From Gammaproteobacteria bacterium (lineage in GTDB: Bacteria > Pseudomonadota > Gammaproteobacteria > Steroidobacterales > Foliamicaceae), in NCBI GenBank assembly GCA_009838035.1, contig VXSK01000028.1, forward strand, positions 1 through 64,000: a stretch of 64,000 bases of DNA, written 5' to 3'. The notes beneath the pieces are model-generated. The model did not search any database. It saw only the letters and a list, made by a program, of their open reading frames with translations, and had not been told where the DNA came from. The position numbers and the translations under genes are program-made. Positions 1,471 to 23,691 of this stretch are shown piece by piece; the stretch's first letter is position 1, and each line of letters starts with the position of its first letter.

Positions 1471-1661
1471 TCGCTCCTCGTGTTTCCATCGCCCTTCGTT
1501 CGTCTCCCTCCTCGTTGGAGACGCCATCCTGGCTCGATTCTCGCTGTTTGTGCTTCCTCGCCCTTCGTTCGTCCCCCTCCTCGCTGGAGACGCCATCCAT
1601 GGCTCGATTCTCGCTGTCCCTGCTCCAACGCTCCCACGAGGATGGGGACGAACGAAGGGCT
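1471..1661. repeat. Tandem copies of a ~100-bp palindromic repeat element
   Basis: This 191-bp stretch in the 333-bp spacer between the carbonic anhydrase and the initiator tRNA holds a two-unit direct repeat of period 69 (starting near 1490 and 1559). The second unit is a complete palindromic element at 1560-1660: two 30-nt arms (1560-1589 and 1631-1660, 27 of 30 positions complementary) around a 41-nt centre. The centre contains, on the minus strand, ACAGCGAGAATCGAGCCA. The first unit (1490-1558) has one arm and most of the centre only. The same centre recurs at 23561-23659. Frames reading through this stretch are not credible genes. It resembles a REP/MITE-type non-coding element. Confidence 0.8.
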
Positions 1662-10734: not shown

Positions 10735-11610
10735 ATGATGCCGCGCATAGCCAATAGATTCTTGCCCTGTTTGATTGCGACCGTGGCGATTGCCGCCCCC
10801 TCGATTCTCGCTGCACCTGCCGACGAACCAGACGTCGCTCCGGATACTGAAATCACACCGGCTCCGACAGGGGAGGAGCAAAGTGACGATCAGGCGCCTA
10901 TCGAAGAGGAGCTAAGTGACGATCAGGAGCCTATCGAAGAAATCGTGGTAGAGGGCGAGCGCCCCAGGCCCCGCCGGCCAAGAGTGTCGCCCAATAGACC
11001 GTTCGTGGGATACGTGGAGAACCGCCCGGGCAGAAGGGTGATTGTCGGCGTCGCTTTGCCCAGGACCATGGAATCGCTTACTTCCCGTATAGAAGATTCG
11101 GCGTACAACGAATCTCCTCCTCTCGACATTGCGAATGAATTGCGCGAGGCATGTGCTTCGACAGGTTTTTCGGGAGAATCGGGCTTCCGGCCGCGCTATC
11201 GACAAAACAGCTTGCTGTCGTGGGCAATGAGGGAACGGGTTCCTTGGCGTTACCGCGAAGAGGGTTCCCTGCATGCCTATGAGTGCCTTGGCGAGAGACG
11301 TGAGGCTGTTGCGGTAGAAATCGACGAGATGTGGGTGCAAAGTGTCGTCGATCGCTGGGAATTGAACGCTGACGAAGCCGACCGCTTACGTGCTCTTGAG
11401 CATGAGGATATCGTCCTGATCCAGCAATTCTCGCAAATCGTCGAGCCGACGGACGGCACTCCCGGTGAGTGGGTAAGAACGCCTTTGCCCGATTTGCAAA
11501 ACAAATCGTTGCTCGATGCGCTGCTCCATGAGGACGGGGACGAGCCTGCGACGAAGCAGGCGTTTGAGCTGGTTCGCGAAGTTGTGACCTTCGTCAAGGA
11601 ACAGTCATGA
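10735..11610 (+). CDS. Hypothetical secreted protein with an acidic repeat
   Basis: I do not recognise this 291-residue protein. It has a Sec-type signal peptide (LPCLIATVAIAAPSILAAPA, cleavage likely near residue 27). An acidic Pro/Asp/Glu-rich segment with two copies of SDDQxPIEE follows, then EEIVVEGERPRPRRPR and a roughly 200-residue region without a known motif. Two ATGs (10735, 10738) follow GAGGAG; the second has the better spacing. Base and codon use look less GC-rich than its neighbours, with many T-ending codons, hinting at an orphan or acquired gene. It converges on the TPR gene with a gap of only 6 nt. Periplasmic or surface location is inferred from the signal peptide alone. Confidence 0.75.
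   Translation: MMPRIANRFLPCLIATVAIAAPSILAAPADEPDVAPDTEITPAPTGEEQSDDQAPIEEELSDDQEPIEEIVVEGERPRPRRPRVSPNRPFVGYVENRPGRRVIVGVALPRTMESLTSRIEDSAYNESPPLDIANELREACASTGFSGESGFRPRYRQNSLLSWAMRERVPWRYREEGSLHAYECLGERREAVAVEIDEMWVQSVVDRWELNADEADRLRALEHEDIVLIQQFSQIVEPTDGTPGEWVRTPLPDLQNKSLLDALLHEDGDEPATKQAFELVREVVTFVKEQS
10881..10940 (+). repeat. 33-bp tandem duplication inside the secreted-protein gene
   Basis: Two direct copies with a 33-nt period (starts at 10881 and 10914) share AAGTGACGATCAGG and CCTATCGAAGA with one difference between them. They encode the duplicated acidic 11-residue unit SDDQ(A/E)PIEE plus linker. The near-identity at the DNA level points to a recent in-frame duplication. Confidence 0.75.
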
Positions 11611-22794: not shown

Positions 22795-23561
22795 TGGCGA
22801 TTGACGGGCTGGCGGTGATTTCGGGTGCTCCGGCGGAGCGGCTGGGCATGGGGCCGCCGGAGAGTCCGGCGCCGACAGAGGATCAGCCCTATGGCCCGCC
22901 TTCGGCGCCCGTGGAGATACGGCGGCTCAATCGGGTTCCGGTTCTCTACCTGAACAGGCACGGCGCGGACTACGCGATCGCGCCTCATCGGATCAACTAT
23001 CGCGCCAACCTAAAGGCCCTGGCCGAGGCCGGCGCCAGGCGCATTCTGGGCGTTCATTCGGTGGGCGGCATCGCCGCGGAGGCCGTCCCCGGCGCCATCG
23101 TCATACCGCATGACCTGATCGACTACACCCACTCGCGCGAGACCAGCTTCGCTCAGGACGGTGCGGGCAAGAGCGCGTTCGTCGAGTTCGCGAACCCTTT
23201 CGACGCGAACATGCGTAGGGGCCTGGTCGCGGCCGCTGAAGGCACGGACTGCATTGTGCGGGGCGTCTACGGCGCGATGCAGGGTCCGCGGCTGGAAACC
23301 GCCGCGGAAATCGACCGGCTGGAACAGGACGGATGCACGCTGGTGGGCATGACCCTGATGCCGGAGGCGGTGCTGGCCCGCGAACTGGGCATTCCCTATG
23401 TCTCCCTGTCACTGGTGACCAACCATGCCGCCGGCCGGAACAGGCAAGGCGAAATGGCCGGCATCATCGAACAGCACGCCGTCTGGCTGGACACGGGCCT
23501 CAAGCGCGCCCGGGAGTTGCTGCTCCGCTGGCTCACCGAACCGCGCGCGCACCCACGGTAG
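22794..23561 (+). CDS. S-methyl-5'-thioinosine / 5'-thioadenosine phosphorylase family protein
   Basis: Purine nucleoside phosphorylase superfamily member of 255 residues. Visible motifs are NRHG (phosphate site), HRINYRAN, HSVGGI, YGAMQGPRLETAAEI and GMTLMPEAVLARELG. In Pseudomonas aeruginosa the gene next to nagZ encodes S-methyl-5'-thioinosine phosphorylase, and the same neighbourhood here supports that function in polyamine and quorum-signal by-product salvage. The ATG at 22794 overlaps the nagZ stop. The final base of the stop codon is also the first base of the palindromic repeat that follows. Confidence 0.88.
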   Translation: MAIDGLAVISGAPAERLGMGPPESPAPTEDQPYGPPSAPVEIRRLNRVPVLYLNRHGADYAIAPHRINYRANLKALAEAGARRILGVHSVGGIAAEAVPGAIVIPHDLIDYTHSRETSFAQDGAGKSAFVEFANPFDANMRRGLVAAAEGTDCIVRGVYGAMQGPRLETAAEIDRLEQDGCTLVGMTLMPEAVLARELGIPYVSLSLVTNHAAGRNRQGEMAGIIEQHAVWLDTGLKRARELLLRWLTEPRAHPR

Positions 23562-23659
23562 CGCCTTTGTGTGCCTCGTTCTCGCGGGAACGTTGGAGCA
23601 GGACAGCGAGAATCGAGCCAGGATGGCGCTTCCAGCGAGAAGGAGGCACACAAAGGCGC
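23561..23659. repeat. Palindromic repeat element, second locus
   Basis: A 99-bp element with two 29-nt arms (23561-23589 and 23631-23659, 27 of 29 positions complementary) and a 41-nt centre containing ACAGCGAGAATCGAGCCA. Its centre matches the element at 1560-1660 (which is in the opposite orientation), and the loop length is identical. The arms differ at many positions, yet both remain self-complementary. It fills most of the 130-nt space between the phosphorylase stop and the convergent csiV-like gene and may act as a terminator-like or mobile palindrome. Confidence 0.85.
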
Positions 23660-23691
23660 GAAATCGAAGCGCCCAAAGAAGCGGTCAGCCC

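Follow-up and report, generated by a model that had tools for sequence, protein, structure and literature searches.

The 64-kb window (the whole stretch of DNA analysed here) contains two complete copies of a long palindrome on opposite strands, both where an earlier note on this DNA had placed them. One (23561-23659, plus strand) lies in the gap between two convergent genes; the other (1560-1660, minus strand) lies between a divergently read gene and a tRNA-Met at 1740. As read from the sequence, the first is made of a 30-nt arm, a 39-nt core and a second 30-nt arm, and the second has a core of 41 nt, the length that the earlier note had given for both. The arms, described there as 29-30 nt long with about eight or more differences, are 30 nt long and differ at more than eight positions. 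Both copies fold far better than shuffled sequences (z about -7). The 18-mer ACAGCGAGAATCGAGCCA occurs three times in the window against 0.08 expected, because a third, half copy consisting of the core and one arm lies at 1491-1547. The window has no Rfam match except a tRNA, and at the elements no family scores above its gathering score.

The G at 23561 is indeed the final base of a TAG stop codon, but the element does not begin there: it extends into the last codons of the upstream gene, because a conserved foot starts about 12 nt upstream. At the opposite end, the 3' foot GAAATCGAAGCGCC and the left stem base of this copy provide a 6-bp repeat, AGCGCC. Tandem half copies, in the window as well as at three other loci (Table 1), are joined at a point of similarity between the 3' foot (GGAAGCA) and the core (GGAGCA), which is what slippage or template switching would produce. 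Elsewhere in the window, about 1 kb with a 291-aa ORF (segment 10622-11613, ORF 10735-11610) is missing from the aligned region of a relative (G006).

Table 1. Positions of the palindrome copies and their parts in the window
Feature	Position	Strand	Basis or remark
5' foot of the 23561 copy	23549..23560	+	ends ..GGTA; conservation profile, 114 copies, background beyond -12
Left arm, 30 nt	23561..23590	+	sequence; fold z = -7.1
Core, type I, 39 nt	23591..23629	+	with GGA-loop mini-hairpin GCC-AGGAT-GGC
Right arm, 30 nt	23630..23659	+	pairs with 23561-23590, few mismatches
3' foot GAAATCGAAGCGCC	23660..23673	+	sequence, conservation profile
Equivalent of the insertion-element entry point in G007 / CO36388bin_2	23598..23599	+	CGTTGGAG^CAGG; L275, L047; own-genome contig ends
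Second complete copy	1560..1660	-	arms 1631-1660 and 1560-1589; core 1590-1630
Tandem half copy, core and right arm only	1491..1547	-	like half copies in L008, L040, L077

Copies, architecture and an insertion element in the core

The earlier note had left it to a whole-genome core search to find further copies or none. In the own genome (G000; 2,923,546 bases, 31 contigs) this search gives 33 matches with at most two mismatches, against one for the reversed pattern, and a covariance model gives 75 hits, several of which are one hairpin counted on both strands. All nine genomes of the genus have covariance-model hits, 21-57 each; outside the genus but within the order, two of 49 genomes have one or two weak hits. 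A long-hairpin scan that does not depend on the core, run on 1.2 Mb of G006, finds 58 hairpins versus none in shuffled sequence, and on inspection nearly all of them have the same scaffold with various cores. The same near-perfect hairpins are present in a single-contig relative (G004; L135, L136), and they are therefore not an artefact of fragmented assemblies.

Alignment of 114 copies on their outer stem ends reveals conservation over 12 nt outside the stem on each side, then background, which makes the unit about 125 bp long. It comprises 12-nt feet, an arm pair of about 27-30 bp and a core of about 40-60 nt with small GGA-loop hairpins. The type I core is AGCGAGAATCGAGCC; further types contain GTAAAAGCAGGATAGCGATTCCGAGCC, GAGCCAGGATGGCGGAACCGAGCCAGGATGGCG, GAGGCAGGGATGCCGGAACCAAGCTCCATGGATGGATTCATGCGTC and others. 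The feet also vary, GTAG being one of several variants and present in a subset. Some cores enclose a nearly identical extra hairpin, GTGAGCGCCGATGCCCCGGCGCGAACAGCG (L002, L126; G006 C9 197209, C6 131150 and C6 160449). The G006 hairpins (L193-L252) often stand in close pairs, 20-40 bp apart and frequently of different core type, in a REP-like manner (C9 148419/148555, C9 197070/197209, C6 75597/75728, C6 162398/162521).

With the 3' part of the late-listed core types (the GAGGCAGGGATGCCGGAACCAAGCTCCATGGATGGATTCATGCGTC kind and others) as search pattern, 14 of 369 Gammaproteobacteria genomes match. By inspection, about nine of the 13 other matching genomes have what appears to be the same core, mostly on a long hairpin with unrelated arms (L254, L264, L266 and L269 are examples). 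Matches at L256, L259-L261, L263 and L270 lie in coding-like sequence and were set aside as probable chance matches. Named carriers are the Gammaproteobacteria metagenome-assembled genomes SB0673_bin_2, RHO1_bin_71, CO36388bin_2 and COS2_bin_9, which their isolate names suggest to be sponge- or invertebrate-associated. This range points to mobile palindromes distributed patchily in Gammaproteobacteria. The type I and generic cores have no match in viral contigs, nor has the generic core in phages or plasmids. Neither the core sequences nor interspersed palindromes that covary turned up in a search of the open-licence literature, which may have missed an existing name.

A number of contigs break off within a type I core and there carry an extra sequence that they have in common. 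At the left junction CGTTGGAG is followed by TATCCATGTTGTCAAGCATGG.., at the right ..CAAACAGACAAG is followed by CAGGGACAGCG, the insertion-element ends being TATCCATGTTGTCAAG.. and ..CAAACAGACAAG. Since the junctions are common and the orthologous sites of relatives are uninterrupted, an insertion element has repeatedly entered the same core position without target duplication. Insertion at CGTTGGAG^CAGGG is seen at the ends of G000 contigs C4, C5, C6, C12, C15, C16 and C23 and at L047, L071, L085 and L275. The element is multicopy, with subterminal palindromes at both ends and an interior that is not assembled; one copy (L141) sits outside the palindrome family, flanked by CAGGG. Insertion sequences are known to enter REPs (PMC1525189), and IS1111 elements are known at attC and REP (PMC11187229). 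A group II intron was rejected as the invader: the own genome's only RVT hit comes without a group II RNA match, and the ends of the introns in G005 and G007 differ from those observed. Two contig starts of the own genome carry CRISPR-like arrays, with repeats GTTTCAATCCGCGCCCCCCGCGCGGGGGGCGAC (L172, G000:C7:1-250) and GCTTCAATGAGGCCGGGGCGCGCGCGCCCCGGATG (L186, G000:C25:1-250).

Gain, loss and placement

Three genomes (G000, G005, G007) carry the hairpin at the 1560 site. The site is empty in G001, G002, G006 and G004, the last being the most diverged of the genomes compared there (85% flank identity); by parsimony, the three carriers gained this copy in their common lineage. At 23561 the hairpin is present in G000, G001 and G006; in G007 the site is interrupted, and in G004 it is absent. 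In G005 the site has collapsed exactly between the two AGCGCC copies, which involve the stem base and the conserved foot, and the 5' foot remains; with G001 (87%) occupied, this looks like a loss of the hairpin. Presence/absence differences are also found at L005, L022, L125 and other loci, and other own copies are missing from G006. The loci taken from the pattern scan (L031-L090) are biased to occupied sites, so calls of gain or loss rest solely on flank searches and the G006 stretches. The comparison revealed no clean target-site duplication, and as a rule the empty sites examined are also without additional bases in the flanks.

Under gene calls made by a simple GC-frame rule, the G006 hairpins lie in 18 convergent, 29 co-directional and 5 divergent gaps, against 70, 185 and 121 among all gaps longer than 60 bp, a depletion in divergent gaps (5/52 vs 121/376, p = 0.0005). 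For most copies the nearest stop codon is no more than about 35 bp away. Relative to co-directional genes, the core is on the same strand in 13 cases and on the opposite strand in 16; this lack of preference speaks against a role in mRNA. Nor does the core have a replication-strand bias, as judged from GC skew.

Paired changes in the arms

Covariation between two arms is the usual proof that an RNA stem is functional. In a covariation test on 41 copies, 96.7% of cells are paired and double changes occur in 25 of 36 pairs; in the outer stem, they occur in 25 of 27 pairs, with 272 double-changed cells versus 71 in shuffles. None of 500 shuffles reaches the observed values, and all measures also exceed those of all slid registers. 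The covariation of the arms described in the earlier note is thus confirmed, and the covariance check, which the earlier note had been prepared to see fail, yields significant covarying pairs.

Over 117 copies and stem offsets 3-24, we counted 2529 Watson-Crick pairs (98%), 17 G-T (0.7%), 8 A-C (0.3%) and 20 others, the excess of G-T over A-C being not significant (p = 0.11). The set was limited to copies with pairing at 18 or more of 26 stem positions, a cut-off that removed only two of 119, so the pairing was not created by the selection of the copy set. Comparison of paralogues within one genome shows differences at 46% of arm positions, of which 90% are paired, and at 7% of core positions. 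In 49 orthologous comparisons, which are not mutually independent, the median difference is 7.0% in flanks, 8.7% in arms and 4.3% in cores. Arm changes at orthologous sites are paired in 133 cases and single in 38, against about 7 paired changes expected with independent arms. A pyrimidine-rich left arm is maintained at stem positions 4-13, so that the arms are not entirely free. At some sites (L034/L134, L073/L138, L137/G006) similar flanks enclose wholly different arms and another core type, so replacement of whole hairpins also occurs. Compared with L087 and L016, L078 combines the left arm of one allele type with the right arm of another, so that either the core has recombined or the metagenome assembly is chimeric here.

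Candidate explanations and known systems

The element is dispersed in dozens of copies with sharp conserved ends and is gained and lost at orthologous sites. It is intergenic, avoids divergent gaps and is found near 3' ends in both orientations; the two arms change in concert, almost without wobble intermediates. Two suggestions of the earlier note, a REP/MITE-type mobile palindrome and arm-to-arm conversion, agree with these observations. We think it probable that this is a chromosomal mobile palindrome, non-autonomous and about 125 bp long, with arms matched by template switching within the hairpin; the best reading is a REP/MITE-like element of an undescribed type. Copies would spread when a putative trans-acting enzyme recognises the feet and core, probably on an extruded or single-stranded hairpin. 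Template switching within the hairpin at replication (quasipalindrome correction) would copy a mutation of one arm into the other, or revert it, and in this way maintain complementarity; the arm sequence would drift freely, the core and feet staying constant as they would be needed for recognition. Exchange of hairpins between copies may add an occasional large jump in both arms. Such switching has been proposed to keep stems paired in RNA-gene hairpins (PMC8794818). Paired arm changes with few G-T pairs favour DNA-level arm-to-arm copying over selection on RNA, although strong selection against any non-Watson-Crick pair could leave paired changes as well, as could conversion between whole copies. 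The one-strand conservation of GGA loops is not explained by DNA mobility alone.

If whole hairpins were copied between loci, by ectopic gene conversion or by re-insertion into old sites, both arms would change at once. The three sites with swapped arms and core type are of this kind, as are L128 versus G006 and L051/L052, where six paired changes stand at 96.6% flank identity; these largest jumps look more like replacement than point-by-point correction. We nevertheless hold this explanation to be improbable, as many orthologue pairs differ by only one or two paired positions in an otherwise identical hairpin (L033/L004, L056/G006, L083/G006), 31 orthologue pairs carry 28 paired changes, and the origin of different perfect arms is left unexplained. 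A classical REP mobilised by a RAYT would also be palindromic, intergenic and biased to 3' ends, and GTAG occurs in some feet. That this is such a REP is nonetheless very doubtful, since the REP-associated tyrosine transposase that the earlier note had suggested looking for (Y1_Tnp domain, Pfam model) is absent from nine of nine genus genomes, one of them a single contig, where control genomes gave positives; moreover, published GTAG and CGTC stems measure 5-13 and 8-9 bp (PMC3733652), and GTAG is only one foot variant among several. This reading would come back into play if the genomes encoded a RAYT too diverged for the Pfam model to detect. The position of most copies close to stop codons would suit an ordinary transcription terminator or mRNA 3'-end stabiliser, which we rate as highly unlikely: no T tract follows the stem in the sequences read, the feet and the asymmetric core are conserved, and copies stand in either orientation and also in divergent gaps, at sites that are gained and lost. 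A 3'-end processing element, another suggestion of the earlier note, is disfavoured because both orientations are equal and the 1560 copy lies in a divergent gap.

The GGA loops leave open a candidate RNA role. Mini-hairpins with such loops number 91 on the core strand, versus 17 in shuffled cores and one on the reverse strand; the core strand was chosen partly by GGA-type motifs, so the contrast with the reverse strand is exaggerated, while that with the shuffles is unaffected. The CsrA consensus is RUACARGGAUGU and the RsmE hexaloop ANGGAN (PMC7652899), and both C[AGGGAT]G and TACAGGGATGTA, for example, are core loops that conform to these motifs. The small stems of distant relatives carry paired changes around a retained GGA, and CsrA is encoded. 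The element might be a structured RNA whose transcripts display CsrA/RsmA sites on a long stem, acting as sponges or as regulators in 3' UTRs and kept paired by compensatory selection. This is unlikely in view of an orientation that is not tied to the preceding genes, a 27-30-bp stem nearly without G-U pairs, type I cores that keep the loop poorly (a 5-nt AGGAT) and CsrA SELEX ligands that are mostly short-stemmed; for the long stem, the RNA hairpin under selection proposed in the earlier note is likewise disfavoured. More speculatively, and with little probability in our view, a class-wide mobile family might combine a long stem corrected at the DNA level with paired GGA hairpins of the CsrA type, dealing out regulator sites or a CsrA sponge across chromosomes.

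Whatever the role of the loops, this is a large natural family with strong arm covariation but without the RNA wobble signature. It can serve as a test set for RNA selection versus DNA template switching, and as a warning for covariation-based RNA discovery. It also represents a patchy Gammaproteobacteria palindrome group without a known transposase, the core of which is itself the landing site of another mobile element.

The element belongs to none of the known families tested, REP-RAYT and MITE each failing in a defining feature. Like REPs of the GTAG and CGTC super-families (RAYT/TnpA-REP), it forms high-copy chromosomal palindromes, often in close pairs, that lie mainly between co-directional or convergent genes and are targets for insertion sequences; unlike them, it has a stem of 27-30 bp rather than 5-13 bp (PMC3733652), a branched core, arms of free sequence and a host genus without RAYT. 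For the invader of the core, as distinct from the palindrome, the parallel is with IS1111/IS110 or IS200/IS605 elements in REP or attC: a multicopy element, known here from its ends only, entered the same position at several copies without target duplication. CsrA/RsmA binding hairpins share the GGA in small C-G-closed loops, often two per element, whereas here the loops sit on a long stem, in both gene orientations and in dozens of dispersed copies; structured regulatory RNAs differ in that the element covaries strongly while G-U intermediates are rare. Bacterial MITEs (ERIC, NEMIS/Correia, RUP) resemble it as short non-coding repeats of about 125 bp with one long hairpin, near genes and with no enzyme of their own, and as non-autonomous insertions between relatives (at the 1560 site, three genomes occupied and four empty, including the most distant). 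However, MITE copies have terminal repeats in common, whereas here the arms differ (46%) around a constant centre (7%), and neither a parent element nor a clean target duplication was found. Quasipalindrome correction by template switching, finally, accounts for matched arms and for paired changes made in one step (PMC8794818), but it has been described as a mutation process acting on hairpins rather than as the upkeep of a dispersed repeat family.
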